Source: an uncultured Opitutia bacterium (GTDB taxonomy: Bacteria; Verrucomicrobiota; Verrucomicrobiia; Opitutales; Opitutaceae). From it: a DNA stretch of 64,000 nt. Both the position numbers and the translations under genes were made by a program. The stretch spans positions 49,656-113,655 of the forward strand of contig CAITWF010000108.1 in the NCBI GenBank assembly GCA_903896015.1, given 5' to 3'. Below the pieces are notes generated by a model that saw only the letters and a list, made by a program, of their open reading frames with translations, had not been told where the DNA came from and made no database searches. This document shows, piece after piece, positions 8,635 through 25,492 of this stretch; position 1 is the first letter of the stretch; the number at the start of each line of letters is the position of its first letter.

Positions 8635-9670
8635 GCCGTGCCGCTGGTGCGGGGCTTAGCGTCGCGCCTTCAAACCAGGTGCCGGGCGTGAGCGTAGTGT
8701 GGCGTGGCTTAGGAATGCCGGTGTCGTTGCGCACGATTTTCTCCACGATCATGCGCGCGGCGGTGGCACCGATGGCGACGTGGTTTTGAAACACGCCGCT
8801 GACGTGGTCGTGGGGATTCACGTTGACGTTAATTAACTGGAGATCGCGTCCGAGTCGCAGCCGATGATGCGCACACCACGCGGTGAGTTGGGGTAGGAGG
8901 GCGTTCGAGGTCACGATCGCTTCCGGGCGGTAGCGCCGGTGCCACGCAGCGAACGCGTTGGCGTCCCACTCTTCCAGCACGAGCGGGGGAATCGCGGCGA
9001 AGAACCGATCGGACTTTTGCTCCATCCAATAGGCGGCGCCGTTGAGCCGCTCCGTACGTTCGTGCGCGACCCGCGTGAGGGCGAGTCCGACGCGCCGGAT
9101 TGCCCGCTGGCGGCATTCGCGCAGGATCATGCGCATGCCGTCATAACTGTCATGGACGACCCGATCGAAGGTGGGGGAAACGAAGGTATACTCGATCACC
9201 ACGGTACAAAACTGCTCCCACGCCAACTCGAACTGGCCCTGTGCCTCGGGGAGGGCGGCGATGATCACGCCCCGGATGTTGCGGGCGAGGAGGACGGAAC
9301 TGAGGCGCTTCTCGGTCAGGTTGCCGGCCCCAAGGACGAACAACTCCACCCGGTAGCCGAGTTGTTCGGCCATCACGCGGGCGCCGTCAAAATGCTGTTG
9401 GCCGGAGTCGCCCAGCGCCGAGCGCGCGACAAACGCGATCGCCAAATCGATCCTTCGCGGGTGGCGTGTCCGGCGCAACGCGATGAGGGCGGAGACCAGT
9501 GGGTGCGGACGGTAGCCGAGCTTCTCCGCGAGGCGTTGGATCCGCCGGCGCGTGCCCGAGGGCAGCCGCGGATCGTTGCGCAGCGCGCGGGAGACGGTGG
9601 TCTGATGGACGCCGGCCGCGCGGGCGACGTCCTGCATGCGGACGGGTTGGGGCGTGGGGTGGCCGAGCAT
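8612..9670 (-). CDS. LacI-family transcriptional regulator
   Basis: A 352-residue repressor or activator. It has an N-terminal LacI helix-turn-helix (VRMQDVARAAGVHQTTVSRA) followed by the hinge and a periplasmic-binding-protein-like sensor domain (GVIIAALPEAQGQF, ending in the PGTWFEGATL run). The start at 9670 puts the HTH within the first 30 residues, as is usual in the family. It is transcribed away from the second receptor gene, and a small palindrome lies between them. It probably controls that receptor, and perhaps the neighbouring dehydrogenase, in response to a carbohydrate. Confidence 0.92.
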   Translation of the reverse strand: MLGHPTPQPVRMQDVARAAGVHQTTVSRALRNDPRLPSGTRRRIQRLAEKLGYRPHPLVSALIALRRTRHPRRIDLAIAFVARSALGDSGQQHFDGARVMAEQLGYRVELFVLGAGNLTEKRLSSVLLARNIRGVIIAALPEAQGQFELAWEQFCTVVIEYTFVSPTFDRVVHDSYDGMRMILRECRQRAIRRVGLALTRVAHERTERLNGAAYWMEQKSDRFFAAIPPLVLEEWDANAFAAWHRRYRPEAIVTSNALLPQLTAWCAHHRLRLGRDLQLINVNVNPHDHVSGVFQNHVAIGATAARMIVEKIVRNDTGIPKPRHTTLTPGTWFEGATLSPAPAARLTSSAAD

Positions 9671-9675
9671 CTTTG

Positions 9676-9689
9676 TGCATTGATATGCA
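9676..9689. promoter_or_regulatory. Candidate LacI-type operator
   Basis: The inverted repeat TGCAT-TGAT-ATGCA lies 5 bp upstream of the LacI-family start codon, in the 115-bp intergenic region shared with the divergent receptor gene. Position and symmetry fit an autoregulatory operator. Five-base arms could arise by chance. Confidence 0.4.
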
Positions 9690-9785
9690 TGACAGGCGAG
9701 TTGCCGCTCGCGCAAGCCCCGTATCGTTTCGCGGTCGCAAACCTCGGCGTCGTGGCGGCGCCTGACCTCAAACCCTTACCAAGCC

Positions 9786-12700
9786 ATGAATCCCACTCCG
9801 TCCGTCCTCTGGCGGCAGCGCCGTTCGCTGCTCGCCGTTATTCCGTCCCTCCTGCTCCCCCATCTGGCTCTAGCCCAGCCGGTCCCAGCCAAGCCGCCTG
9901 CGACCGTATCGCCAGGCACCGACGAAGTTGTTGAGCTCACTCCCTTTCAGGTGGATGCCTCTAAGGACAGCGGCTACTTCGGTGCGAACACGATGTCCGG
10001 CACCCGCCTCAACTCCCGCGTGCAGGATCTCGGCGGCTCGATCACCGTGGTGACCAAGGCGCAACTCGACGACACTGCCTCGATCGACATCAACGACATT
10101 TTCAAATACGAGGCGAACACCGAGGGGATCTACGATTTCACCGCGATCACGACCTCCTCTCCGACGGCCGACATCATCCAGGGCGGCTCCGCCACCTCGG
10201 GTGGCCCACAGCTCGCCACGCGCGTTCGCGGCCTCACGGCGCCGAACATCACCATCGACTATTTTACGCACACCGCGCGCATCCCGATCGACAGCTACAT
10301 CCTCGACTCCGTCGAGATCAGCCGCGGGCCGAATTCGTCGGTCGCCGGCCTCGGCAGCCCCTCGGGCACGATTAATCAAAACACCGCACCCGCCAACCTC
10401 AGGCGCGATTCGAACCAAGCCGTTTTTCGCGCCGACAGCTACGGCGGCTACCGCGCGAGCCTCAATCTCAACCGCGTCCTCTGGAAGGACAAACTCGCAG
10501 TGCGTGTCGCCGCGCTCTACGGCGATCAGGAATACAAGCAAAAGCCGTCCTACGATCTGACGAAGCGCATCTACGGCACGCTGACCTACAAGCCGTTTAA
10601 GTTCACGACCCTTAATCTCAGGGCGGAGCACTACGCCGAAAGCCGCCAGGCGCCGAACTCGCTCACCCCGCGCGACGGCGTCAGCGAATGGATCGCCGCG
10701 GGCAAGCCGACGTGGAATCCGCTCACGTTCACCGCCACGACGAGCAACGGCGCCAAGACCGTCCTCACCGCCGCGCAGGATAACACCGCTGCGTTTCCCG
10801 CCGGCCTCTACGTCAACACCACGACTTATACGCGCCCCAGCTTCTTCATCGACGGCGGACAGGTGCAGCTCTGGGAAATCAACCGTCTCGGCACATCGAA
10901 CAATCCGAACAATTCCACGGCGAGCAACGTGCGGTTGCTTGCCTCCGGCTCCGCTTACATGCGCGGCTTGGTAAACTCTAATACGCTCTACACCACGCCG
11001 GGCATCACCAACAAGTCGCTCTACGACTGGACCTCGATCAACGCCGTCCCGACCAATTGGAATTACGATCACGCCGCGCTCTACACCGCCGAGCTCGAGC
11101 AGAAGATCTACGACACGCTTTATTTCCGCGCCGCGTGGCATCTCGAAGATTCCGTGGAGTATAATCGCAACATCACCTCGCCCACGCTGCAGGTTGATGT
11201 TAACCAGTTCCTGCTCGACGGCCGCGCGAATCCCTATTTCCAGCGACCGTATATCTCCTCGATTGAGCCGTCGATCTTCCGTCTGCCGGAATACAATGAC
11301 GCCAAGCAGGCCGCGCTTACCTACAGCCTCGATCTTTCGCAGCGCCCGGGAGTGCTCGGCTGGCTCGGCCGCCACCAGCTCGGTGCGAACTACGAGAGCC
11401 GCTTCGTCACGCAAGGCACGTTCCGTTACCGTGAGGCGGTCTCCGATCCGAATCACATCTGGCTGACGCCCGGCGCCATCAATTACACCAACGGCGCCGC
11501 GATTGGCCGCCCGGATTATGTTTATTACGTCGGGCCCACCGGCGCGGTCGGCTACACGCCCGGCTATACGCCGCCGAAGTCTGGCGTCGCTGGAAATTTC
11601 AATTTCAACTGGTTCAACGGCGCGACCAACCAGTGGGTGAGCGAGCCGGCCGCGTTCAATACGCTGCCCTATATCACCAGTCTCACGCGGCAAGAAACCA
11701 CCACACATTCCGCTACGTGGCAGGGTAGTCTGTTCAAGGATTATCTGGTCGTGACCGGTGGGCTCCGCAAGGACGCCTACCGCACGCGCAACTCCCTTAC
11801 CGGCGCGGTGGTGGACGGCAACACCGGCCTCTTCACTTACGACGCGTTGAAAAACTGGGGTCCTTGGACCTACGCCTCCGGCCCCACGCGCTTCATCAGT
11901 GGCGTGCTCTATCCGTTCCACACCCGGGTGCTGGGCCTCACTTACAGCCGCTCGAGCTCGTTCCAGCCGCAACCGCAGGCCGTCGATCTTTTCGACAACC
12001 TGCTGCCCAACACCTACGGGCACGGCCAGGACGCGGGCGCGTTTGTCAATCTGCTCGGCAACAAGCTCGTCCTCTCAGTCAAGTTCTACAAAACCACGAT
12101 CGCCAACGACCGCACCTCGAACTCCACGATCGGCAGTCGCATCGCGCGCATCGAGGAAGGCGGCGTCCTAGCCGGCACGAGCGCGGACACGTTCAGTCTC
12201 TACAACTTCGGCCAGGCAGTCGCGAAGCAACGCCTCGGGAACTCCGCGAGTCAGGCGCAAATCGACGCCGTGGCCGCCACCGTCACCCAATTTCCGACCG
12301 GCATTCAAAACGCGGTCGCAGCCAGCAACTCCGGCGCCGCGATCCGCGGCACCGCTGACACCGAGGCGAAAGGCGCCGAGCTCGAGCTCACCTACAACCC
12401 GACGAACAACTGGGCGATCAAGTTTTCCGGCGCGCAGACCGAATCGATCAACAAAACTATCGAAAACAATCTCCAGAGCTACATCGATTCGCGACTGACC
12501 TTCTGGCAAAACGTCAAAGATGATCAGGGGCTCACGTGGTGGGATGGCAAGTCCCCGCTGGCGCCCACGGGCACCTCGTCGGCCCAGAATTTCTACAACG
12601 TCAACGTCGTCGTTCCCATTCGCCTCGATCAGGCGCTACTCGGCAAGTCCAACCCGCAGGTGAAAAAATACACCTGGCGCCTTCTCAGCACCTATCGCTT

Positions 12701-13046
12701 TTCCGAAGGCAAGTTGAAGAACGTCTCCGTAGGCGGTGCCGTGCGCTGGGACGACAAGAGTGTGATCGGCTACCTCGCCGGCGCGCCCGACGCCGATGGC
12801 ATCGTCCGCACGCTCGACGTAAACAAGGGCGTCTACGACCCCTCGCGCTACGCGGCCGACTTTTGGGTCAACTACACGATGAAACTTTACCACGACAAAG
12901 TCCGCGCGAAGATCCAGTTGAACCTGACTAACGCGTTTGAAAACGGTGGCTTGCGCACCGTCGGCGTCAACCCAGACGGCTCACCCTTCAACTTCCGCAT
13001 CATCAACCCGCGGCAGTTCGTGCTCTCCTCGACGTTTGACTTCTAA
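9786..13046 (+). CDS. TonB-dependent outer-membrane receptor (LacI-linked)
   Basis: A 1086-residue receptor. Residues 1-30 form a signal peptide ending in ALAQ. A TonB-box-like VVELTPFQV follows, then a plug domain that starts MSGTRLNSRVQDLGGS and contains ISRGPNSSVAGLGSPSG, then a long barrel ending in SSTFDF. It is a clear paralogue of the 4020-7484 receptor: shared runs include IDINDIFKYE/IDINDIFQYE, IPIDSYILDS/IPIDAYNIDS and the C-terminal NPDGSPFNFRIINPRQF. It lacks the EF-hand-like insert. It is divergent from a LacI regulator and has its own terminator, so it is probably an inducible single-gene unit for carbohydrate import. Confidence 0.94.
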   Translation: MNPTPSVLWRQRRSLLAVIPSLLLPHLALAQPVPAKPPATVSPGTDEVVELTPFQVDASKDSGYFGANTMSGTRLNSRVQDLGGSITVVTKAQLDDTASIDINDIFKYEANTEGIYDFTAITTSSPTADIIQGGSATSGGPQLATRVRGLTAPNITIDYFTHTARIPIDSYILDSVEISRGPNSSVAGLGSPSGTINQNTAPANLRRDSNQAVFRADSYGGYRASLNLNRVLWKDKLAVRVAALYGDQEYKQKPSYDLTKRIYGTLTYKPFKFTTLNLRAEHYAESRQAPNSLTPRDGVSEWIAAGKPTWNPLTFTATTSNGAKTVLTAAQDNTAAFPAGLYVNTTTYTRPSFFIDGGQVQLWEINRLGTSNNPNNSTASNVRLLASGSAYMRGLVNSNTLYTTPGITNKSLYDWTSINAVPTNWNYDHAALYTAELEQKIYDTLYFRAAWHLEDSVEYNRNITSPTLQVDVNQFLLDGRANPYFQRPYISSIEPSIFRLPEYNDAKQAALTYSLDLSQRPGVLGWLGRHQLGANYESRFVTQGTFRYREAVSDPNHIWLTPGAINYTNGAAIGRPDYVYYVGPTGAVGYTPGYTPPKSGVAGNFNFNWFNGATNQWVSEPAAFNTLPYITSLTRQETTTHSATWQGSLFKDYLVVTGGLRKDAYRTRNSLTGAVVDGNTGLFTYDALKNWGPWTYASGPTRFISGVLYPFHTRVLGLTYSRSSSFQPQPQAVDLFDNLLPNTYGHGQDAGAFVNLLGNKLVLSVKFYKTTIANDRTSNSTIGSRIARIEEGGVLAGTSADTFSLYNFGQAVAKQRLGNSASQAQIDAVAATVTQFPTGIQNAVAASNSGAAIRGTADTEAKGAELELTYNPTNNWAIKFSGAQTESINKTIENNLQSYIDSRLTFWQNVKDDQGLTWWDGKSPLAPTGTSSAQNFYNVNVVVPIRLDQALLGKSNPQVKKYTWRLLSTYRFSEGKLKNVSVGGAVRWDDKSVIGYLAGAPDADGIVRTLDVNKGVYDPSRYAADFWVNYTMKLYHDKVRAKIQLNLTNAFENGGLRTVGVNPDGSPFNFRIINPRQFVLSSTFDF

Positions 13047-13075
13047 CTACGCCGCCCCCGCGGCGCTTACCCTTG

Positions 13076-13105
13076 CTCTCCGGCCGCCCGGCCGGAGAGT
13101 TTTTT
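13076..13105 (+). terminator. Rho-independent terminator of the second receptor gene
   Basis: A perfect 10-bp stem (CTCTCCGGCC at 13076-13085 and GGCCGGAGAG at 13090-13099) with a GCCC loop is followed by six T residues. Confidence 0.92.
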
Positions 13106-13179
13106 GTGTCCGCGCAAACGGCGCAGGGTGATTGCCAAGCGCCGTCCGCTGCGGAACGCTCTGCCCTCTCCGCCTGCCG

Positions 13180-14427
13180 ATGAAAACCTTCAGCCGCCAC
13201 GCGCGCGCTCTCCAGTGGCTCGATCACCGCTTCGGCTTGCCGCTGTGCTGGTTGCTCACCGGTGCGCGGCGCGTGCGAGATGCGTTCGGACCCGGAGCGC
13301 CGTCGGGCGCAGGTTGGCGCAGCATCGTGTTCGTCAAGCTGGCCGAACAGGGCTCGACCGTGCTCGCAGCGGCGACTCTGCGCGCCGCCGTCGATCGCGT
13401 CGGCCGCGCCCGTGTCTTCATTCTCGTGTTCGAGGACAACCGTTTCATCGTTGACGTGCTCGGTCTCCTCCCGCCGGAGAACGTCCTCACCATCCAGACG
13501 CGTTCCCCATGGACGATGGCGGTGAGCGCGCTGCGGCAACTGCGCGCCTTGCGCCGTCGGCGCATCGAGGCCTGCGTGGACCTGGAATTTTTCGCGCGCT
13601 CCTCGGCGGCAATCAGTTATCTGACCGGCGCCCGCTGGCGCAGCGGATTTCACACGTGGTTCGGCGACGGCCCCTACCGCGGCGACCTCCTCACGCACCG
13701 CGTGCTCTACAATCCGCATCTGCACACGAGCGCGGCCTTCGCCTCGCTGCTCGCAGCGCTCAATGCCGATCCGGACAAGATGCCACTGCTGGACGCGCGC
13801 ATCGCGGTCGCGGCAGAGTTGCCGCGCTTCCACACCACCGACGCCGAACGCTTAGAGGTCTCTACGCTGCTCGCCGCCGCAGGCATCCCGGCGGACGCAC
13901 CGCTGATTCTCCTCAACGCCAACGCCGGAGATCTCCTGCCGCTCCGCCGCTGGGCCGGCGCCAACTACGTCGCGCTCGCGCAACGCCTGCTCCGGGAATT
14001 CGATCGCGCCGTGATCGCGTTTACCGGCTCGCCGGAGGAGGCGGCGGCGACCGCAGAACTGGTCCGAGCGGTGGACTCGCCACGGTGCGTGGACCTGGCC
14101 GGCCGCACTTCACTCCGCCAACTCATGGTCGTCTACGAGCGGGCCGACGTGCTCGTGACCAACGACAGCGGTCCGGCGCATTTCGCGGCGCTCACCGGTA
14201 TCGATGTCGTTGCGCTCTTCGGGCCGGAGACACCCGCGTTGTTCGCCGCCCTCGGGCCGCGCAGCCATCCGCTCTGGGCCGGCATCCCGTGCAGCCCGTG
14301 CGTCAACGCCTATAACAACCGCCGAACCGCGTGCCGTGACAACATCTGCATGCAGCGTCTCAGCGTCGACCTCGTGTTCGCGAAAGTCGGCGAGATTTGC
14401 CGGCGGCGCGTCGCCCCGTCCGTGTGA
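13180..14427 (+). CDS. Glycosyltransferase family 9 (heptosyltransferase-like)
   Basis: A 415-residue GT-B fold sugar transferase of family GT9, the family of the ADP-heptose:LPS heptosyltransferases. It acts on the cytoplasmic side during lipopolysaccharide or other glycan assembly. The nucleotide-sugar site is visible in LVTNDSGPAHFAALTG (near residue 325) and in the following ALFGPETP. The family run LILLNANAGDLLPLRRW lies before it. The Cys-rich segment PCSPCVNAYNNRRTACRDN near the C terminus fits a common GT9 variant. The stop codon overlaps the GTG start of the next gene (GTGA), so the two are translationally coupled. The donor sugar is not predictable. Confidence 0.88.
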   Translation: MKTFSRHARALQWLDHRFGLPLCWLLTGARRVRDAFGPGAPSGAGWRSIVFVKLAEQGSTVLAAATLRAAVDRVGRARVFILVFEDNRFIVDVLGLLPPENVLTIQTRSPWTMAVSALRQLRALRRRRIEACVDLEFFARSSAAISYLTGARWRSGFHTWFGDGPYRGDLLTHRVLYNPHLHTSAAFASLLAALNADPDKMPLLDARIAVAAELPRFHTTDAERLEVSTLLAAAGIPADAPLILLNANAGDLLPLRRWAGANYVALAQRLLREFDRAVIAFTGSPEEAAATAELVRAVDSPRCVDLAGRTSLRQLMVVYERADVLVTNDSGPAHFAALTGIDVVALFGPETPALFAALGPRSHPLWAGIPCSPCVNAYNNRRTACRDNICMQRLSVDLVFAKVGEICRRRVAPSV

Positions 14428-16319
14428 CCCGCGGCGCTCCATCTCCGGCGAAGCTGCGCCTGCTCGACTTCGCGCGGGTGGCCGTGCTGGCCCTGGCAGT
14501 ATGGTGGATCTACGCGCCCGCGCTGCACGGTGACTGGCTGTGGGACGACAACTCCGAGATCACGACCAATCGCGAGCTACGCGATCCCGCGGGCTGGTGG
14601 CACGCGTGGGTGGCACCGGCCGGCCCCGATTATTTTCCGCTGAAGACGGACGTGCAGTGGCTCCAGTGGCGCGCGTGGGGTGGAGCGTCGACGTTGGGCT
14701 ACCATCTCGCCAACGTCGCACTACATCTCGCGAGTGCGCTGCTCGCGTGGCGTATATTGCGGCGGCTCGGCCTACGCTTCGCGTGGCTCGGCGGGTTGCT
14801 ATTCGCCGTCCATCCGATCGCGGTGGAGTCCGTGGCATGGATCGCGGAACTGAAGAACGCCCTCTCGCTGCCGCTGCTGCTGCTGGCTTTCGACGCGTGG
14901 CTGGATTTCGAGGAGCGCGCCGTTCGTTCGGCCTACGTGCGCGCGTGGCTGTGGTTTCTTGCCGCGCTGCTCAGCAAAAGCTCCGTCGTGATGTTTCCGG
15001 TCGTGCTCGGGCTGCTCGCGTGGTGGAAACGCGGCCGGATCAGTCGCCTCGACGCCGTCCGCCTTGCGCCGTTTTATCTGTTTTCGTTGCTGCTCGGCCT
15101 CGTGACGATCTCGTTCCAACGCCGCGCAATGAGCGGCTGGCAACCGCCGGAGTCGGGCGTGCTAGAGTGCGTGGCGAATGCCGGCCGCGCCTTCGCCTTC
15201 TACCTCGGCAAGTGTCTCTGGCCCGACGCGCTCGCGCCGATCTATACACGATGGTCCGAGGGTAACGCGCTGGCTGCGGGCGTGGCGGCATGGCTGGCGA
15301 TCGCGGCGATGGTGGTCGTCTGCTGGCGGGCGCGCGCGACGTGGGGGCGGCACGCGTTGCTCGGACTGGGTTTCTTCGGTATCAATTTGGTTCCCGTCTT
15401 AGGCTTGGTCCCGATGTCCTATCAACACATCGCGCCCGTCGCGGATCATTTTGCGTATGTGTCGTTGCTCGGCGTGACGGGCTTGGTCGTTGCTGTGGGC
15501 GAGACGTTGGCTTCGCGGGGCGAGCCAACTCGGCGGTGGGCTCTATCACTTGCGTTGAGTGGTGCGGCCGGCGCGCTGGCGATCACGAGCCGGAGTTATG
15601 CCGCCGCATTTGCCGGCCCCGAAGCGCTCTGGACGCTCGCGATCGAGCGCAATCCCCAAGCCTGGCTGGCGCGAAACAACCTCGGCGCGCTGCGCCTGAA
15701 ACAGGAGCGCTGGGCCGAGGCCGCTACCCAACTCGAGGCGGCGATCCGGTTTTGGCCGTACGACGCGCCCGCCCACACCAACCTTGGCAGCGCCCTCGCG
15801 CACCTCGGCCGCCTCGATGAGGCGCTCGCCCAGCAGCGTGAGGCCGTGCGCCTTGAGCCCGACTCGGCCGATGCGCACTTCAACCTCGCCAACACGTTCG
15901 CCATCACGGGCCGGCTAGACGAGGCCATTGCCCATTACCGGGCCGCAGTGCGGGTCGCACCGGGTCTACCCGACGTCCGTCACAATTTCGCCAACACCCT
16001 CGTCCGCGCCGGTCGCCTGTCCGAGGCGATGGCGCAATATCGCGAGGCGCTGCGCCTCCAGCCAAACTCCTTCGAGTCCGAACTCAACCTCGGCAACGCG
16101 CTCGCCGCGGCGGGGCAGATGCGCGAGGCCGCGGACCACTTCGAGGCGGCCGCGCGGCTCAACCCGGATTCCGGCGAAGCCCACTACTGCCTCGCCGACG
16201 CCCTTGTCGAACTGGGCCGCGCCTCCGAGGCTCTCGCGCACTACGAAACGGCGGCGCGGCTCAAGCCCGACGACGCTGAGCTTCGCGCCCGCCTCGAGCA
16301 GGTGCGCCGCCAGCGGTGA
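14424..16319 (+). CDS. TMTC-like GT-C membrane protein with C-terminal TPR repeats
   Basis: A 631-residue protein with about ten membrane helices (residues 15-400) followed by six or seven TPR repeats, with signatures such as AHTNLGSALAHLGRLDEAL. The first extracytoplasmic loop has the acidic pair D41-D42 (WLWDDNSEIT), as in GT-C transferases that use lipid-linked sugars. The run FAVHPIAVESVAWIAELKN closely resembles the conserved loop of eukaryotic TMTC O-mannosyltransferases. The GTG at 14424 is preferred over the upstream TTG at 14397 because it gives the GTGA coupling with the glycosyltransferase. A paralogue lies at 50947-52914. The activity, protein or lipid glycosylation outside the inner membrane, is inferred. 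Confidence 0.8.
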   Translation: MTRGAPSPAKLRLLDFARVAVLALAVWWIYAPALHGDWLWDDNSEITTNRELRDPAGWWHAWVAPAGPDYFPLKTDVQWLQWRAWGGASTLGYHLANVALHLASALLAWRILRRLGLRFAWLGGLLFAVHPIAVESVAWIAELKNALSLPLLLLAFDAWLDFEERAVRSAYVRAWLWFLAALLSKSSVVMFPVVLGLLAWWKRGRISRLDAVRLAPFYLFSLLLGLVTISFQRRAMSGWQPPESGVLECVANAGRAFAFYLGKCLWPDALAPIYTRWSEGNALAAGVAAWLAIAAMVVVCWRARATWGRHALLGLGFFGINLVPVLGLVPMSYQHIAPVADHFAYVSLLGVTGLVVAVGETLASRGEPTRRWALSLALSGAAGALAITSRSYAAAFAGPEALWTLAIERNPQAWLARNNLGALRLKQERWAEAATQLEAAIRFWPYDAPAHTNLGSALAHLGRLDEALAQQREAVRLEPDSADAHFNLANTFAITGRLDEAIAHYRAAVRVAPGLPDVRHNFANTLVRAGRLSEAMAQYREALRLQPNSFESELNLGNALAAAGQMREAADHFEAAARLNPDSGEAHYCLADALVELGRASEALAHYETAARLKPDDAELRARLEQVRRQR

Positions 16320-17585: not shown

Positions 17586-17679
17586 TGGGCGTCTAGGGTG
17601 AGATGCTTATTCGGCAACTCCCTGCTCGACGCGCCGATGCACAACACGCAAGTTCTCGGCCGCGTCCCCCCGCGTGCCC

Positions 17680-19080
17680 ATGGACCTTACGACTCTCCGT
17701 CCAGTCGATTCAAACGGTCTTGCTCCGTCTCTTGACGACGACGCGTGGGAAGATCTCCTCAATTATATCGAGGAGAAGCGTGTTATCCCGATCGTCGGGC
17801 CGGAGTTGCTCCGCGTGGAGACCGACGCCGGTCCGCGCCTGCTCTACGATTGGCTGGCGGAGAAACTCGCTGCGCGGCTCAACGTCGCGACGAGCACGCT
17901 GCCGGCGCCGTTCACGCTCAACGATGTCGTCTGCCAGTTCCTTGCCGCGCGTGGCCGGCGCGAGGAAGCCTACACGCGGCTGCGCACGATTCTGCGCGAA
18001 ACAAATTTTGCGACCCCACCCGCACTGAAGCAGCTCGCCCAGATCACTGACTTCAATCTCTACGTCACGACGACGTTCGACCCGTTGCTCGAGCAGGCGA
18101 TCAACGCCGAGCGCTTCGGCGGTGCGGCCTCGACGGAGGTGATCGCCTATTCGCCAAATCGCGTGGCCGATCTCACGGTCGAGCGCGAACACCAGCAGCG
18201 GCCCGTCGTCTATCACCTGCTTGGCCGACTCTCGGCGTCGCCGACCTATGTCATTTCCGACGAGGACACGCTGGAGTTCATCTGCGCGCTGCAGAGCGAG
18301 CATCTCACACCGGAAAAGCTTTTTCACGAGCTCGAGCACAACCACCTTCTCCTCATCGGGGGGAATTTCTCCAACTGGCTCGCCCGTTTTTTCCTCCGCA
18401 TGGCGAAGCGCCGCCGGCTCTCCGACCCGCGCGATGTGGGCGAGGTGCTGGCTGACGACACCTCGCTGCGCGACGGCCGCCTCGTCTCGTTTCTCCAGCA
18501 GGTGAGTGCACGCACGCGGATGTTCGACGGTGCGGAGAAATTTGTCGCCGAGTTGCATCGCCGCTGGATGCAACGGCGCGGGCATGAGGACGTCACGCTC
18601 CCGGCCTTCGCGGTGCAGCGGTTTCTCCCGCCCGCGCGCGAGATGCCCGACAACGCCATTTTCATCAGCTATGCCCGCGAGGATTTGCCCGCCGTGCAGC
18701 GGCTGAAGGCGGCGCTTGACGCCGCCGGGGTCACCACATGGTTCGACATGGAGCGGCTCGAAAGCGGCGACGACTACGACCGGAAGATTCGCACGAATAT
18801 TTCGCGCTGCGCGTTCTTCGTGCCGGTGATTTCGGCGACGACGCAGCGGCGGCTCGAGGCGTATTTCCGCCGCGAGTGGAGTTACGCGACCGATCGCGCG
18901 CGCAACATTGCCGAGGGCGCGGTGTTCATCCTGCCCGTGTGTATCGACGACACGACCGAAGCCGCCGCGCTCGTGCCCGAAAAATTCAAGGCGCTGCACT
19001 TCACGCGGATTCCTAGCGGTGAACCCCCGCCGGAATTCGCCCGCCGCTTGCTCGAACTTACGGGAGGCCGCCGCGCATGA
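17680..19080 (+). CDS. SIR2-like/TIR fusion protein
   Basis: A 466-residue cytoplasmic protein. Residues about 20-290 form a SIR2-like fold. The nucleotide loop reads VIPIVGPELL (35-44), TTTFDPLLE (130-138) stands where active relatives have TTNYD, and YHLLGRLS (178-185) keeps the His. Residues about 325-455 form a TIR domain: NAIFISYARED, WFDMERLESGDDYD and YFRREWSYA, with E399 as the likely catalytic Glu. The expected SIR2 Asn is Thr (T132), so the TIR half is the better candidate NADase or signal producer. GTG 17674 is two codons upstream of the chosen ATG 17680. The stop overlaps the ATG of the STAND gene (ATGA), so the two are coupled. The role, immune or stress signalling, is inferred. 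Confidence 0.85.
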   Translation: MDLTTLRPVDSNGLAPSLDDDAWEDLLNYIEEKRVIPIVGPELLRVETDAGPRLLYDWLAEKLAARLNVATSTLPAPFTLNDVVCQFLAARGRREEAYTRLRTILRETNFATPPALKQLAQITDFNLYVTTTFDPLLEQAINAERFGGAASTEVIAYSPNRVADLTVEREHQQRPVVYHLLGRLSASPTYVISDEDTLEFICALQSEHLTPEKLFHELEHNHLLLIGGNFSNWLARFFLRMAKRRRLSDPRDVGEVLADDTSLRDGRLVSFLQQVSARTRMFDGAEKFVAELHRRWMQRRGHEDVTLPAFAVQRFLPPAREMPDNAIFISYAREDLPAVQRLKAALDAAGVTTWFDMERLESGDDYDRKIRTNISRCAFFVPVISATTQRRLEAYFRREWSYATDRARNIAEGAVFILPVCIDDTTEAAALVPEKFKALHFTRIPSGEPPPEFARRLLELTGGRRA

Positions 19081-22000
19081 GCCAGATTCCCGCCTCGGCA
19101 GCGCCCGCGATTGATCCGCAAAATCCGTGGCTCGGTCTCGCATCCTTCACGGAGGAGACGCGGGCATTTTTTCACGGCCGCGATGAGGAGGTCGCCGAGC
19201 TCGGCCGGCGCGTACAGCGCAAACTCCTCACCATTTTGTTCGGTCAGTCTGGTCTCGGCAAAACCTCCATCCTTCGCGCGGGCATCGTGCCGCGGCTGCG
19301 GCCCGACGGCTACTGTCCGGTTTACGTGCGGCTCGACTACGGCAAGGAGTCGCCGCCGCCGGCACAGCAGATCAAGGACGCGATCCTCCGCGCCACGCGC
19401 GAGGCAGGGCACTGGACGCAGACGGGCATCGCGCAGGAGGGCGAGTCGCTCTGGGAATTTCTCCACCACCGCGACGACCTGCTCCGCGATCGCACCGGAC
19501 GGAAACTGATCCCGCTGCTCATCTTCGATCAGTTTGAGGAGGTGTTCACGCTGGCGCAGGGCGATGACTTTGGTCGGCAGCGCGCCGCACTTTTTCTGGA
19601 GGAACTTGCCGATCTCGTGGAGAACCGCGCGCCGCGCGCGCTCGAGGCGCGGCTAGAGGCCGACGAGGCAGGCATGGAGCGTTTCGATTTTGGCCGCGCC
19701 GACTACCGCATTCTCATCGCGCTGCGCGAGGATTACCTCGCCCACCTCGAGGGGCTGAAGAACGCGATGCCGTCGGTCACGCAAAACCGCATGCGGCTCG
19801 CGCGCATGACGGGCGCTCAGGCGCTCGCGGCCGTCACGCGGCCTGGTGCAGGTCTCGTGAGCGAGGAAGTCGCCCGTTCGATCGTGCGGTTTGTCGCCGG
19901 CGGGGCGGAACTGGAACGCGCGGAAGTCGAGCCGTCGCTGCTCAGCCTCGTGTGCCGCGAGCTCAACGAGACGCGCCGCACCAAGGGCCACGCGGAAATT
20001 TCCGGCGACCTGCTTGCCGGTTCGCGCGATACGATTCTTACCGAGTTCTACGAGCGGACGCTTGCCGATCAGCCCGCCGGCGTGCGCGCGTTTATCGAGG
20101 ATGAGTTGCTCACCGACTCCGGCTACCGCGAGAGCATCGCGGAGGAGCGCGTGAATAAAGGCTTCATCGCTGCCGGAGCGGGCGCCGAATCGCTCGCGAC
20201 ACTCATCGATCGCCGCCTCTTGCGCGTCGAGGAGCGCCTCGACGTGCGCCGCGTGGAGCTGACGCACGACGTGCTGGTCGGCGTCGTCAAGGCGAGTCGC
20301 GATGTTCGCCAGGCCCGCGAGCGCACGGAAGCGATCGAACGCCAGCTCGCCGAGACCCGTGCGAAGGAAGCCGCGACGCAGCGTTCGCTCTGGCAGGCCC
20401 GCCTGATCGCAACCGTGTGCGCGGTGCTCGCGGTCGGCGCGATTGCTAGCGCGATTTTTGGCTACCTCAATCTGCGCCGCGCCCGCGCCGCCGAAGTTGC
20501 CGCGCAGGCGAGCGCCAGGCGCGCGTTGGAAAATGAGAAACTTGCGTTCGCCTCGCGCGCCGAAGCGGAACGCGTCGTCAACTTTCTCGTCGTTGATTTG
20601 GTTCAAGACCTACTGCCTGTCGGTCGACTGGGACTGTTGGCTAATCTCTATCGGCAGGCACTTGCCTACTACGACCGGCTGCCGCCCGGGCTCGTCACCC
20701 CGGACACGCTGATCAACCAGGCGATCGGCAACGCGCGCGCCGCGTGGATTTCTTCGCAGTTGGATCTTCCTGCCGAGGCCGACGAACGAGTGACCAAGGC
20801 GATCGCCGCCCTCGCGGCGGCGGGCACCCGCGGCGATCCGGACAAGACAGCGGAAGCCCGAGCGGAGATTCTCTTCACGCAGGCCGGCATCGCGGATCAG
20901 GCGCAGCAAGATTACAACACGAGCGAGGAGCTTTGCCGCAAGGCGCTGGCGGTGCTCGATCCGTTGCTCTCGCGTCCCAATCCGTCGGTCGAGGCCCGGA
21001 GATTGGGGGCCCGTGCGACGTGGATCCTTGGCTTTTCGCTCACACGCAATGGAAATCCCGAGGCCGTCACAATTCTGGACCGCAGTGCGGCCCTGGCCCG
21101 CTCCCTCCTCGTCGACGATGAAAACAAAGAGCGTGCTGAATCGTGGATAGCGACAGCCGTCGCCTATGGAGCCTACGCGGCGAGCCGGGCTGGTCTGCGT
21201 GATCAAGTCGAGGCTCGGGCAAAAGAGGGCGTGATTCTCAACACAAAGATCCGGGCCGGCGACCCCACGAACGGTTGGGTGCTCGATGTCCTGAGCGTGT
21301 CATACCGCGAGCTCGCCAAAACCTATCGCGACCAGGGCAAGCTCTTCGACGCCGCTGACGCTGATCGTCGACGCGCCGACGTGGACGAGGCCATGCTAAA
21401 GATCGATCCGACGAACCGTGGCACGAATAACAACGTCATGATCGGTCGTTTCTACGATTCCTACACTTCGCTCCGTCAGGGTGAAATTTCTGCCGCGCTC
21501 TCGGCGCTGGCTGAAACCGCGAGCACCGACGTTAGCTCCAAGTCGTCAGCCGGCTTCAACAAGGGCAACCTGCTGCGCCTCCGCGCGGCACGCACGGAAG
21601 TTCTGGCTGCGGTCGCAGGCGAACGGGGCGCGCGCGATGAGCTTGCAGGGGTCGAGACACTGGCAAAAGACCTTATCGCTATGCAGCGCCCAGAATCACC
21701 CGGTTGCACGCTTGCGATCGAGCGGCTGTCGAGCGTGCAGCGTTCGGTCGCCCTGGCGTCCGGTGACTTCAATCGCGTCCGCGATTCCGCCCACAAATCG
21801 CTCACCGCTTTGGCGGCACTGCCGCCGAGCGGGGGAACGGTGGAAACGAGCCGACTTCTGATGCGCCGCAATGCGCAGCACGCTCTGGCCCAGGCGGCCA
21901 CCGAGCAGGGCAACTGGGCCGAGGCCGAGGCCGTGTTTCGCACCGAGCTTTCCGAGGCACGCACATCCGGGGAGCAGGCAAACCGCATTGTCGCCTCTGC

Positions 22001-22379
22001 CGGCATAGTATCGTCACTCTCCGCCGAATTCTCAGCCGAAGCATGGCAGATGGAGCTTCAAACTTGGCTGGCTTGGGTCTGTGCCCACCAACTGGGCAAA
22101 GCCGACGAAGCGCTTATCCTCGCGAAGGCTGTCGTGGACTATCAGCGCCGGCAGCTCGCGCGCGGTGACGGTTCTGACCAAGCGACGCGGCTGGCCGAAG
22201 GTTTTGCGCTCGTAGCGCTCGCCCGCGCACAAGCGGACGGAGGTGACAAGGCGAATGCGAGATCGGTTTTGAACGAGGCGGAAAAGATTCTCGCGAGCTT
22301 GTCCGACGAATTTCGCGTCACGAGCTGGGTGAAGCGTGTGCAGGCGAAGCTCGAAGAAACGCGAGCGCTGGTGCGCTGA
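19077..22379 (+). CDS. STAND-family NTPase (nSTAND1 type) with membrane helix and helical-repeat C terminus
   Basis: An 1100-residue signal-transduction ATPase. The N terminus has the family lead-in NPWLGLASFTEE and FFHGRDEE. Walker A is GQSGLGKTS (56-64, K62) and Walker B is LIFDQFEEVF (D151). A helical STAND arm follows (RIALREDYLAHLE-like, TGAQALAAVTRPG) and ends in the winged-helix run VELTHDVL. A coiled coil near residues 410-440 leads into one membrane helix at about 443-465. Residues 480-1100 form degenerate TPR-like helical repeats. It is coupled by ATGA to the SIR2-like/TIR gene. The model is that the repeats sense, the NTPase oligomerises and the TIR partner acts. The biological input is unknown. 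Confidence 0.85.
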   Translation: MSQIPASAAPAIDPQNPWLGLASFTEETRAFFHGRDEEVAELGRRVQRKLLTILFGQSGLGKTSILRAGIVPRLRPDGYCPVYVRLDYGKESPPPAQQIKDAILRATREAGHWTQTGIAQEGESLWEFLHHRDDLLRDRTGRKLIPLLIFDQFEEVFTLAQGDDFGRQRAALFLEELADLVENRAPRALEARLEADEAGMERFDFGRADYRILIALREDYLAHLEGLKNAMPSVTQNRMRLARMTGAQALAAVTRPGAGLVSEEVARSIVRFVAGGAELERAEVEPSLLSLVCRELNETRRTKGHAEISGDLLAGSRDTILTEFYERTLADQPAGVRAFIEDELLTDSGYRESIAEERVNKGFIAAGAGAESLATLIDRRLLRVEERLDVRRVELTHDVLVGVVKASRDVRQARERTEAIERQLAETRAKEAATQRSLWQARLIATVCAVLAVGAIASAIFGYLNLRRARAAEVAAQASARRALENEKLAFASRAEAERVVNFLVVDLVQDLLPVGRLGLLANLYRQALAYYDRLPPGLVTPDTLINQAIGNARAAWISSQLDLPAEADERVTKAIAALAAAGTRGDPDKTAEARAEILFTQAGIADQAQQDYNTSEELCRKALAVLDPLLSRPNPSVEARRLGARATWILGFSLTRNGNPEAVTILDRSAALARSLLVDDENKERAESWIATAVAYGAYAASRAGLRDQVEARAKEGVILNTKIRAGDPTNGWVLDVLSVSYRELAKTYRDQGKLFDAADADRRRADVDEAMLKIDPTNRGTNNNVMIGRFYDSYTSLRQGEISAALSALAETASTDVSSKSSAGFNKGNLLRLRAARTEVLAAVAGERGARDELAGVETLAKDLIAMQRPESPGCTLAIERLSSVQRSVALASGDFNRVRDSAHKSLTALAALPPSGGTVETSRLLMRRNAQHALAQAATEQGNWAEAEAVFRTELSEARTSGEQANRIVASAGIVSSLSAEFSAEAWQMELQTWLAWVCAHQLGKADEALILAKAVVDYQRRQLARGDGSDQATRLAEGFALVALARAQADGGDKANARSVLNEAEKILASLSDEFRVTSWVKRVQAKLEETRALVR

Positions 22380-22406
22380 CGGTTGCATCTGAGTTTCGTA
22401 CATTTC

Positions 22407-22465
22407 GTAGGGGCACGCCTCGTGCGCGTCTTTTCGAGCAATGCGCGGACGAGCCGCGCCCCTAC
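22407..22465. repeat. REP-like imperfect palindrome
   Basis: GTAGGGGC (22407-22414) pairs with GCCCCTAC (22458-22465). After a symmetric 4-nt gap, CTCGT (22419-22423) pairs with ACGAG (22449-22453). This looks like an extragenic palindromic element and resembles the one at 39267-39335 (both open with GTAGGG). It lies between the STAND gene and the PQQ dehydrogenase. Confidence 0.6.
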
Positions 22466-22515
22466 CTCGCATTTCGTGGCTCGCGGGCGGAAGCGAAATC
22501 CACCTAATTCCGCTT

Positions 22516-24639
22516 ATGCCCCCTCGTCCGGCCGCTGCCCGCCTTGCCTTGGTCTGTGCCGCGCAATCGCTCTTTGCCGCCGCCGATGCGAATTGGGCGG
22601 CCTATCTCGGCGACGCGGGCGGCACGCACTACTCGTCGCTCACGCAGATCACGTCGGCGAATATCGCGAAGCTCCAGCCGGCCTGGACTTTTCACGCGGG
22701 CGGGGCCGATCCGAAGAACCGCTCGCAGATTCAGTGCAACCCGCTCGTGATCGATGGCGTGCTCTTCGGCACGTCGCCGGACCTTGCGCTGTTCGCGCTC
22801 GACGCGGCAACCGGTCGCGAGTTGTGGCGCTTCATCCCGGAGCGCGAGGCGGGCGGCGGCGGACCGAGCGGCCTGAACCGCGGTCTGACGATGTGGAGTG
22901 AAGGGGCCGAGCGGCGGTTGATGTTTTCCGCCGGCAATTTTCTTCACGCGATCGATCCGGCGACGGGCAAGACGATCGACTCGTTTGGCGACCACGGCCG
23001 CATCGATCTCCTCGACGGACTCGATCGTGACACGAAGGGGCTTTATCTCGCGGCCAACACGCCCGGCGCGATTTTCCGCGATTTGATTATCATGCCGATG
23101 CGCGAGGGCGAGGGGCCAGGGCCGGCGGCGCCGGGACACATCCGCGCTTATGATGTGCGAACGGGAAAGCGGCGTTGGATTTTTCACACGATTCCGTTTC
23201 CCGGCGAGCCGGGTCATGAGACGTGGTCGCCGGATTCGTGGCTGAAGACGGGCGCGGCGAATTGCTGGGCCGGCTTGGTGATCGACGAAAAACGCGGGCT
23301 CGCGTTTGTGCCGACGGGCTCGGCCACGTTCGATTTCTGGGGCGGCGATCGGCTCGGCGACAATCTTTACGCGAACTGCCTGCTTGCGCTCGACGCGGCG
23401 ACCGGCGCGCTCAAGTGGCATTTTCAATTCGTCCACCACGATCTGACCGATCGCGATTTGCCGGCGCCGCCGGTGCTCTGCGAGGTCGTCCGCGAGGGAA
23501 AAAAGATCGCAGCGGTCGCACAGACGACGAAATCGGGTCACGTGTGGGTCTTCAACCGCGAGACGGGTGAGTCGCTGTTTCCATGGCGCGAAGTGTCGGT
23601 ACCGCAGACAAATTTGACGGGCGAGAAAACGTCGCCGACGCAGCCTTTTCCACTGAAGCCGGCGCCGTTCGCGCGGCAGCGTTTCACTGAGGAGGAAGTC
23701 ACGGATCTTTCTCCCGGAGCGCATGCGGCGGTGCTGCAAAAGCTCCGGACGCTGGAGCCGTCGGCGCCGTCCACGCCGCCGAGCGAGCGCGGGACGATTA
23801 TCATGCCGGGTTTCGACGGTGGCGCGGAGTGGGGCGGCGCGGCAGTCGATCCGCGCGGCGTGCTCTATGTGAACGCAAACGAGATGGCGTGGATTCTCCA
23901 GATGGTGCCGACGGCGGTGTTTGGCGCGGGGGCGAAAGCGCTCTACGCGCAGCTCTGCGTGGCGTGTCACGGAGTAACTCGCGAGGGCAATCCCGCCGCG
24001 AACATCCCGAATCTCACAACCGTTGGGACGCGGCTGAAACCCGACGAAATCGGCACGCTGCTGCGGAACGGCAAGGGCATGATGCCATCGTTCAGTTTTC
24101 TGCCGCCGGCGGCCCGCGAATCCCTCGTGCGGTGGTTGATTTCGCCCGAGGCGGAGGAGGCGGCCAGCGCACGCGAGGCGGGCGGGGGCGCGGCACCGAG
24201 CGCGATCCGCAGTCCCTACGTCTCAACCGGCTACAACAAGTTTCTCGATCCCGACGGTTATCCGGCGCTGCGTCCGCCGTGGGGCACGCTCAACGCGATC
24301 GATCTGAACACGGGGGAGTTTCTCTGGAAAAAGACGCTCGGCGAAATTCCGGCGCTGACCGCGAAGGGCGTGCCGCCAACCGGCGTGGAGAATTACGGCG
24401 GCCCAATCGTGACGGCGGGCGGGGTGCTGTTCGTCGCGGCGACGAAGGACGAGCGGATTCGCGCGTTCGACGCGAGGACCGGTGAGAAACTGTGGGAGGC
24501 GCCGCTGCCGGCGGGCGGCTACGCGACGCCCGCGACTTACTCAGTCGGCGGAAAACAGTTCGTGGTGATCGCGTGCGGCGGCGGCAAACTCGGCACGAAG
24601 TCGGGCGACGCGTATGTGGCGTTTGCGCTGCGGCCTTAA
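22516..24639 (+). CDS. PQQ-dependent dehydrogenase with fused cytochrome c domain
   Basis: A 707-residue exported quinoprotein that oxidises a sugar or alcohol in the periplasm. The N-terminal signal peptide ends near SLFAAADA. An eight-bladed beta-propeller follows, with quinoprotein blade motifs (DAATGRELWRF, DPATGKTIDSF, DVRTGKRRWIF, DAATGALKWHF, DARTGEKLWEAPLP). A cytochrome c domain is inserted before the last blades: heme motif CVACHG, with a likely Met ligand in GMMPSFSFLP. The closing region (GVPPTGVENYGGPIVTAGG) is typical of membrane-type glucose dehydrogenase-like enzymes. The ATG at 22516 is chosen because it starts directly at the signal peptide. The substrate is unknown. Confidence 0.92.
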   Translation: MPPRPAAARLALVCAAQSLFAAADANWAAYLGDAGGTHYSSLTQITSANIAKLQPAWTFHAGGADPKNRSQIQCNPLVIDGVLFGTSPDLALFALDAATGRELWRFIPEREAGGGGPSGLNRGLTMWSEGAERRLMFSAGNFLHAIDPATGKTIDSFGDHGRIDLLDGLDRDTKGLYLAANTPGAIFRDLIIMPMREGEGPGPAAPGHIRAYDVRTGKRRWIFHTIPFPGEPGHETWSPDSWLKTGAANCWAGLVIDEKRGLAFVPTGSATFDFWGGDRLGDNLYANCLLALDAATGALKWHFQFVHHDLTDRDLPAPPVLCEVVREGKKIAAVAQTTKSGHVWVFNRETGESLFPWREVSVPQTNLTGEKTSPTQPFPLKPAPFARQRFTEEEVTDLSPGAHAAVLQKLRTLEPSAPSTPPSERGTIIMPGFDGGAEWGGAAVDPRGVLYVNANEMAWILQMVPTAVFGAGAKALYAQLCVACHGVTREGNPAANIPNLTTVGTRLKPDEIGTLLRNGKGMMPSFSFLPPAARESLVRWLISPEAEEAASAREAGGGAAPSAIRSPYVSTGYNKFLDPDGYPALRPPWGTLNAIDLNTGEFLWKKTLGEIPALTAKGVPPTGVENYGGPIVTAGGVLFVAATKDERIRAFDARTGEKLWEAPLPAGGYATPATYSVGGKQFVVIACGGGKLGTKSGDAYVAFALRP

Positions 24640-24656
24640 TCCTCGGGCGCATGTCT

Positions 24657-24686
24657 TGCCCGCGGGCAGCGTCTGCAAGTGAGACG
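24657..24686. terminator. Palindromes between convergent genes
   Basis: The 12-bp palindrome TGCCCGCGGGCA (24657-24668) is followed by CGTCT (24670-24674) pairing with AGACG (24682-24686). They fill the 55-bp gap between the convergent PQQ dehydrogenase and SDR genes and probably act as a bidirectional terminator. There is no strong T-run. Confidence 0.45.
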
Positions 24687-24694
24687 TCCTACAG

Positions 24695-25492
24695 CTAAGT
24701 GCGCACCGAAAATTTCATCTGCCGCACGAGGCGTGAGTAGAGCGAAGGAAAAAAACGCTTGATGTAGATCGCGTAGGCTTCGCGGCCGACGTAGATTTCT
24801 TCACGGCCCTTCGCCACGGCGCGCACGATCGCGGCGGCGCAGGTTTCGGCGGTGATGCCGGTCTGGTGCGTAGCGTCGGTGCGTCCGTGCTTCTCGCCGC
24901 GCGGGCCGACGGCGTTGTCGGAGACGGCGGTCTGCACGTAGCCGGGGCAGACGAGCGTGACTCCGATGTTTTCCTTCCAGACCTCGGCGCGGAGCGAATC
25001 AAAGTAGCCATGGAGCGCGTGCTTTGCGGCGGCATAGGTCGAGCGGCCCGGTGTGCCGACGTAGCCCATCACGCTACTCACGACGACAATTCGGCCGGAG
25101 CGCCGCGCGCGCATCGACGGCAGCACGGCTTTCGTGAGCGCAACGGGCCCGAAATAGTCGACCTCCATCAATGCTCGCTCGACGTCGAGCGCGGCGTCGC
25201 CGGCCAGTGCGCGCTGGCTCACGCCGCCGTTGTTGAGGAGCACGTCGATTTTTCCGCAGCGTCCGAGCGCGTCGGCAACGATCGCAGAAAATGTTTCGTA
25301 GCGTGCGAGATCGAGCGGCACCACGAGATGGTCGTCCGGGCGATCACAGCCCCCGCGCACGCGCTCGAGTTCGGCGGGGCGGCGACTCGAGAGGACGAGT
25401 TTCGCGCCCTCTCGCGCAAACGCGATGGCCGCGGCCTCGCCGATGCCAGACGACGCGCCGGTGATCCAGACGACTTGGCCCGAAAAGTTCAA
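24695..25492 (-). CDS. Short-chain dehydrogenase/reductase (SDR)
   Basis: A NAD(P)-dependent oxidoreductase with a Rossmann fold. The cofactor loop is GASSGIGEA, followed by LLNNGGVSQR; the catalytic Ser is in VVVSSVMGY and the YxxxK pair in YAAAKHAL. The C-terminal part (QTGITAETCAAAIVRAV, GREAYAIYIKRFFPSLYSRLV) is typical of the DHRS7-like SDR group. The start is uncertain: TTG at 25492 lies 8 bp after the upstream stop, while ATG at 25555 would overlap the upstream SDR by 56 bp and add a low-complexity tail. It is the last gene of the minus-strand run. Confidence 0.85.
   Translation of the reverse strand: MNFSGQVVWITGASSGIGEAAAIAFAREGAKLVLSSRRPAELERVRGGCDRPDDHLVVPLDLARYETFSAIVADALGRCGKIDVLLNNGGVSQRALAGDAALDVERALMEVDYFGPVALTKAVLPSMRARRSGRIVVVSSVMGYVGTPGRSTYAAAKHALHGYFDSLRAEVWKENIGVTLVCPGYVQTAVSDNAVGPRGEKHGRTDATHQTGITAETCAAAIVRAVAKGREEIYVGREAYAIYIKRFFPSLYSRLVRQMKFSVRT

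Follow-up and report, generated by a model that had tools for sequence, protein, structure and literature searches.

Do two overlapping genes in an uncultured Opitutia bacterium, one encoding a SIR2-like domain fused to a TIR domain and the other a large STAND NTPase, form an immune system, and, if so, which of their parts would make a signal and which would read it? The genes, here called A and B, lie in a 64,000-nucleotide stretch of contig CAITWF010000108.1 (hereafter the window). A preliminary description of the window had proposed them as a sensor–effector pair outside the named defence systems, in which the SIR2 and TIR domains were both taken for active nicotinamide adenine dinucleotide (NAD) modules. 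We find that A and B form a conserved, overlapping pair, patchily distributed over at least two bacterial phyla, and that a gene for a candidate signal reader is often present beside it or in the same genome, which makes it likely that the set is an innate-immune receptor. We lean, if not strongly, towards a membrane-anchored immune switch whose TIR-made signal is read by a SLOG–SLATT protein encoded nearby or in trans. In this scheme, the TPR tail of B would recognise an invader cue, presumably of phage origin; the STAND NTPase of B would in turn assemble, switching on the TIR domain of A, which would cleave NAD into a signal; and the SLOG–SLATT protein would read the signal through its SLOG part and act on the membrane, putatively as a SLATT pore. 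The features on which the argument rests are as follows.

17680–19080, plus strand: gene A, a SIR2-like and TIR protein of 466 residues, read from the ATG at 17680
17731–18579, plus strand: SIR2-like region of A, about residues 18–300, catalytically degenerate (Pfam SIR2_2 core match and alignment columns)
18658–19005, plus strand: TIR domain of A, with the predicted catalytic Glu399 at 18874–18876
19077–19080, plus strand: ATGA, in which the start of B overlaps the stop of A
19077–22379, plus strand: gene B, a STAND protein of 1100 residues, read from the ATG at 19077
19125–20363, plus strand: nSTAND1 NTPase of B, residues 17–429 (Pfam and Walker residues)
20403–20459, plus strand: single predicted membrane helix of B, residues 443–461 (most hydrophobic 19-mer)
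20514–22376, plus strand: C-terminal TPR superhelix of B, residues 480–1100, fast-evolving and likely an exchanged sensor tail

Both reading frames and their ATGA overlap are present as originally described; an alternative GTG start of A at 17674, 6 bases upstream, would lengthen its product to 468 residues. A scan of GTDB contigs detected A at 93 loci; 80 of these were retained (66–89% identity), and 4262 relatives of A were found among 7999 candidates scored in a protein database. B directly follows A in 75 of the 80 loci, and each of the remaining five contigs stops inside A or no more than about 130 bases from it. The two genes are thus not paired by chance. B starts at the ATGA-overlap offset in 60 of the 75 loci, the script having favoured an overlap start wherever one existed. 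By the taxonomic labels, the tree of A (78 of 81 sequences, those longer than 430 residues) comprises 66 members from Pseudomonadota, 10 from Verrucomicrobiota and 1 from Actinomycetota. One sequence labelled Mycobacteriaceae (L046) falls among the Pseudomonadota and may be mis-binned.

Which domain of A would act on NAD? Pfam places SIR2_2 (4.2e-12) and TIR_2 (1.1e-18) on A, both above the curated cut-offs, bearing out the reported fusion. The view that both are active NAD modules is not supported: none of the three signature motifs, GAGxS, TTNxD and HG, survives in the SIR2-like part; an excerpt of PMC12931631 names these for immune sirtuins, with NG as a working variant of HG. Protein A of the window has G40-P-E-L-L at GAGxS, T132 at the catalytic Asn and L181 at the catalytic His, and the corresponding sites across the aligned relatives mostly read GPELL or GPDLL, TTTFD, and LG or FG. 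The catalytic Asn is replaced by Thr, and the catalytic His by Leu or Phe, in all 81 sequences (the window and 80 relatives); five further relatives (63–66%, 40% and 33% identity) have Thr or Ser for the Asn and no His. On these motifs we reject an active SIR2 in A. By contrast, the TIR domain has kept its catalytic Glu: E399, singled out in the preliminary description, is in place and is retained in 79 of 80 rows, the adjoining residues also being off in the lone exception, as well as in the distant relatives just mentioned. A therefore combines a TIR fold with the conserved catalytic Glu by which a TIR NADase is recognised and, given the loss of the SIR2 residues, the TIR domain alone is likely to act on NAD. 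Fold searches with a predicted structure of A returned TIR matches and some unrelated ones, and left the SIR2-like part unplaced because the model is weak there. Judging by the conserved and lost residues, we infer that the TIR domain is the enzyme. The SIR2-like part would serve as a scaffold or bind a ligand without cleaving it; most likely it is an inactive scaffold, keeping A within the assembly of B or aiding TIR stacking.

B has the build expected of a membrane-anchored sensor. Pfam nSTAND1 matches it at 1.1e-31 (111.3 bits against a cut-off of 27.1), and K62 of the Walker A motif (GQSGLGKTS), highlighted earlier as a residue to mutate, is invariant together with D151, E154 and E155 of Walker B (IFDQFEE) in 57 sequences; B is thus an nSTAND1 STAND NTPase. 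The conservation set comprised the window and 59 of the 75 relatives (those longer than 1000 residues), 56 of which, with the window, went into the B model. All Pfam TPR matches in B are below cut-off. An AlphaFold2 model (predicted local distance difference test score, pLDDT, 85 overall) has a TPR superhelix of helix pairs from residue 518 to 1099, with residues 433–470 at pLDDT below 50, and among the PDB matches listed for it, proteins with TPR or other repeats predominate. The most hydrophobic 19-mer lies within residues 400–530 in 60 of 60 B proteins (443–461 in the window), so that the 1100-residue STAND protein with a membrane helix and a TPR-like region, as first described, is found here. 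Lys and Arg around this helix are more numerous on the N-terminal side in 49 of the 60 proteins, equal in 9 and fewer in 2, and Cys averages 1.07 per approximately 598 residues of tail against 3.08 per 430 residues of head. The tail of B is accordingly predicted to lie outside the cytoplasm, where it would do its sensing.

If the TIR domain makes a signal, what would read it? Three partner families, assembled from what BLAST returned for the first cases and searched with a threshold of 40 bits, recur around the 80 loci: X, with a SLOG-like N-terminus and SLATT domains; cyc, with TPR-S, a SLOG-like middle and a guanylate cyclase; and a PGDYG gene with a SLATT-like gene. A linked partner is found in 36 of the 80 loci, and in 23 of the 42 with full flanks (3 kb or more upstream and 2 kb or more downstream). 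The preliminary description had called for a check on conserved neighbourhoods and had itself missed the partner genes, linked or in trans.

X occurs in 14 loci, divergent just upstream of the pair in L012–L017 and L019 (Verrucomicrobiota) and in L050, L081 and L083, and downstream in L025, L035, L040 and L044. When six X proteins were scanned with SLATT models, four matched at E below 0.001, with L015, L017 and L035 above cut-off and L013 just below, and L040 and L050 gave no SLATT match; we take the family to carry a SLATT domain. SLOG-family matches were found in two of the six (L017 and L050), below the Pfam cut-off. In the parts of PMC9503650 and PMC7159879 that we draw on, SLATT is a membrane effector responsive to ADP-ribose derivatives or nucleotides. 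The cyc family occurs in 12 loci, 10 of them downstream and 2 divergent upstream, and the TPR-S and guanylate-cyclase models score above cut-off in all four linked cyc proteins scanned. TPR-S reportedly recognises NAD-derived signals (a proposal of Burroughs and Aravind in 2020). One domain is common to both X and cyc (hhalign probability 98, P 3e-13; 20 column-shuffled controls reached at most 3%), which the weak Pfam matches suggest is SLOG-like. The third family, in 10 loci (L049, L051, L055, L060, L065, L067, L072, L073, L074 and L077), consists of a small PGDYG-type gene followed by a SLATT-like gene downstream of B, the two forming one long frame in L073. The PGDYG model scored above cut-off in both proteins scanned and SLATT_1 below its own; PGDYG may be another signal reader. 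On the tree of A, the partner types require 14 changes, against 30 with shuffled labels; they are clustered in clades yet have changed repeatedly.

No partner is linked to the pair in 19 of the 42 full-flank loci, nor does one adjoin it in the window. These loci, and the conserved TIR Glu, would suit another account, in which B activates an NAD-hydrolysing TIR domain, the pair alone kills or stalls the infected cell by depleting its NAD, and the partners are optional neighbours; a single-chain TIR-STAND-TPR protein is discussed as possibly degrading NAD in the section of PMC9122126 at hand. Recurrent SLOG-bearing partners, and their co-occurrence in trans described below, would be unexpected if the TIR product had no reader, and we regard depletion by the pair alone as a possible but unlikely explanation.

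Partners are also encoded elsewhere in the genomes concerned. The window's genome (G000) carries an X gene on contig C103, 71% identical to X of L013, with a SLATT match just below cut-off (25.8 against 26.3) and divergent from two tandem genes encoding TIR, transmembrane (TM) and TPR regions (TIR-TM-TPR). It also carries cyc on contig C59 (L110, 8564–10594), about 1.5 kb after two tandem TIR genes, TIR-TM-TPR and TIR-cyclase-TM-TPR. This cyc has FAE and WGK against FAD and WGD in its linked relatives and has no cyclase Pfam match, changes by which the cyclase of the window genome's TPR-S–SLOG–cyclase protein is probably inactive. Of the 44 loci in which no partner was detected, we took 24 and searched the genome of each for X, finding it in 21 (E at most 1e-20); in one of the 24, L011, X lies beyond the fetched flank on seemingly the same contig (20,591 bases). 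In the window's family, X (E 1e-40 or better) occurs in 14 of 17 genomes with A, partial matches such as that of G029, covering the SLOG part only, being included in the 14, against 23 of 133 genomes without A (Fisher 1.4e-7). In the family of G155 the counts are 6 of 7 against 33 of 110 (Fisher 0.0054), and both Fisher values are optimistic because related genomes are not independent. Since X is also found in these 23 and 33 genomes without A, it is clearly not exclusive to A and serves other systems too. A TIR match occurs in 4 of 14 fetched stretches around X genes, most X genes having no TIR gene close by. In the genome of L010, a second contig (L124; G151, C591) opens within a B-like gene that is read in two frames, after which come X and a TIR-bearing gene; L124 may continue the L010 locus, the two contigs being unjoined in the assembly.

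Among 60 sequences, the median pairwise difference is 23–27% for the SIR2-like, TIR and NTPase parts and 74% for the tail of B. Compared with L009, the closest relative fetched, the pair of the window shows 92% identity in the SIR2-like and TIR parts and 87% in the NTPase, but 20–22% in the tail; L009 and L011 are 58–94% identical along the tail. Relatives with heads of B 87–90% identical to that of the window have tails about 20% identical (P0127, head 90%, tail 18%). P0122 shares with the window both the head (96%) and the tail type (46%), and P0123 and P0124 have the same tail identity (46%) with a head of only 49%. The tail tree groups the window with P0122–P0125 (Shimodaira–Hasegawa-like approximate likelihood ratio test support 100), and the head tree nests it among the Opitutaceae rows. 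In approximately unbiased (AU) tests, for which both groups were named after the trees had been inspected, the tail data reject the head grouping (p 6e-73), and the head data do not formally reject a group of the window and P0122 with P0123–P0125 (p 0.097). The G+C content at third codon positions falls from 0.81 in the head of B to 0.71 in its tail in the window. A search with the tail alone returned just the window protein and P0122; this search, which is word-limited, did not return P0123 and P0124 of the same tail type. Because tail relationships differ from head relationships, the tail of B has likely been swapped between relatives, with the junction at the membrane helix or shortly beyond it. 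Such an exchange could be imitated by rapid divergence or by an assembly join: the tails of B evolve fast across the whole family, and the head test stopped at p 0.097. Against both stand P0122, a separate protein with the same head and tail type; the 46% tail identity of P0123 and P0124 over 49% heads, when relatives with 87–90% heads have only 18–21%; the rejection of the head group by the tail tree; and a head-to-tail drop at third positions that just 3 of 59 other loci match or surpass. We therefore think it improbable that either accounts for the tail of the window.

Is the pair a fixed part of its hosts? A (E 1e-60 or better) is present in 17 of 150 genomes of the window's family, and a genome of the same genus, G025, has an empty site:

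17586–24699, no strand assigned: block of 7.1 kb, holding A, B and a pyrroloquinoline quinone (PQQ) dehydrogenase gene, absent from G025, in which 32 bases separate the flanking matches

The pair is thus accessory; the empty site would fit its gain in the window as well as its loss in G025. Presence in all Opitutaceae at a fixed place, which the preliminary description had named as grounds for dropping the idea, did not occur, and a housekeeping gene at a fixed place is ruled out by the same two observations. A second block, window 8626–16319, is also missing from G025 at a neighbouring position, so the stretch seems prone to gene gain or loss. The window holds no tRNA, and no direct repeat at the block edges was apparent by eye, which speaks against a tRNA-targeted insertion. 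The PQQ dehydrogenase gene after the pair, which includes a cytochrome domain (window 22441–24639), has a 74% identical counterpart in L009 (10741–12903). It was rejected as a third component and taken for a mere neighbour, as among 75 loci examined it adjoins the pair only in L009 besides the window; a weak match (24%) in L043 is far from the pair.

Several observations weigh against the immune switch that we favour, in addition to the loci lacking a linked partner, the limits of the Fisher and AU tests and the wider occurrence of X already given. The predicted structure of A is weak (pLDDT 62), and the SLOG matches and many SLATT matches are below the Pfam cut-offs. A search of 50,697 phage records found no match, and among 72,556 plasmids four records matched, one of them near-full-length but distant (31%); a phage- or plasmid-borne system was set aside on these grounds. 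PADLOC models, run on 60 downstream neighbours, gave 33 families with at most three matches each, some to housekeeping-type proteins, and on 52 upstream neighbours seven families with one match each. Of the stretches listed, 59 of 101 on the downstream side and 51 of 92 on the upstream side were scanned together with those of the window, using mechanical calls of open reading frames, and within them the pair does not cluster with known defence genes. The genes on either side of the pair in the window likewise have no PADLOC match, in keeping with the earlier remark that no defence gene adjoins it. A and B might then be a switch for stress, envelope or social cues, with a tail that reads self or environmental ligands. 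The absence of defence-island enrichment and of phage carriers, the single distant plasmid relative, the predicted extracytoplasmic tail and the nucleotide cyclase of one partner family would all suit such a role. An arms race is the better fit to the patchy distribution and the empty site, and to divergence or replacement of the tail over a conserved head; a non-immune switch seems to us rather unlikely. From these features we infer a role of the pair in immunity.

The membrane-anchored immune switch may also be part of something larger. The window's genome has 21 further TIR matches (contigs C103, C59, C16, C86, C72 and others), and the four TIR genes examined in full comprise three TIR-TM-TPR and one TIR-cyclase-TM-TPR; the TIR-TM-TPR topology resembles that of a small Toll-like receptor. 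One could imagine a bacterial Toll-like receptor pathway, in which exchangeable external TPR ectodomains, coupled inside through STAND or directly, belong to many TIR receptors (A–B and the 21 matches, at least some of them TIR-TM-TPR) that make one NAD-derived messenger for shared SLOG-gated effectors such as a SLATT channel. We offer this wider proposal tentatively and consider it doubtful. The pair allows a direct test of whether several TIR receptors in the same bacterium use a common messenger and act through a single membrane effector.

How does the pair compare with known systems? PADLOC assigned B to no family at E up to 1, and hence to no AVAST (Avs) type; on A it gave matches of the TIR part, those to ThsB being weak (E 0.0011 and 0.045), with no ThsA to indicate Thoeris, and one weak match, LmuA (E 0.013), in the SIR2 region. 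The scanned representatives of X, cyc, PGDYG and SLATT matched no model. The proposal of a sensor–effector pair outside the named systems thus stands, and in a literature search of partial coverage we found no description of the pair, its partners or the SLOG–SLATT linkage. We regard it as a new variant of the TIR/STAND conflict systems. If our reading is right, it adds a split TIR–STAND system that has a dead SIR2 scaffold, interchangeable recurrent readers and a sensor tail probably passed from head to head. Exchange of sensors between heads is a pattern of plant and animal NLR (nucleotide-binding, leucine-rich repeat) evolution.

SLOG–SLATT proteins are said to be nucleotide-signal effectors (Burroughs et al., in 2015), and partner X resembles them in its SLATT matches and SLOG-like N-terminus; what differs is its linkage to a SIR2-like–TIR/nSTAND1 pair. 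Thoeris likewise joins TIR, SIR2-type and SLOG domains in one pathway, the SLOG of ThsA (SIR2-SLOG) reading the product of the TIR protein ThsB, as the portion of PMC9503650 used here has it. In the present pair, by contrast, the TIR domain is fused to a SIR2-like part without the catalytic Asn and His, the SLOG-like domain is joined to SLATT or a cyclase and not to SIR2, and a separate STAND protein presumably acts as trigger. AVAST type 5 (Avs5, SIR2-STAND-TPR) shares the coupling of a STAND NTPase and TPR sensor to an NAD-type domain. Avs5 works through an active SIR2 in which N110 is essential (excerpt of PMC12931631), whereas the effector here is a separate TIR protein and B has a membrane helix and no PADLOC family match. 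The single-chain TIR-STAND-TPR proteins of P4-like satellites, as portrayed in the available section of PMC9122126, have the same TIR effector, STAND NTPase and TPR sensor; the pair described here differs from them in its division into two genes, its extra SIR2-like domain, its membrane helix and its recurrent SLOG, SLATT and cyclase partners.
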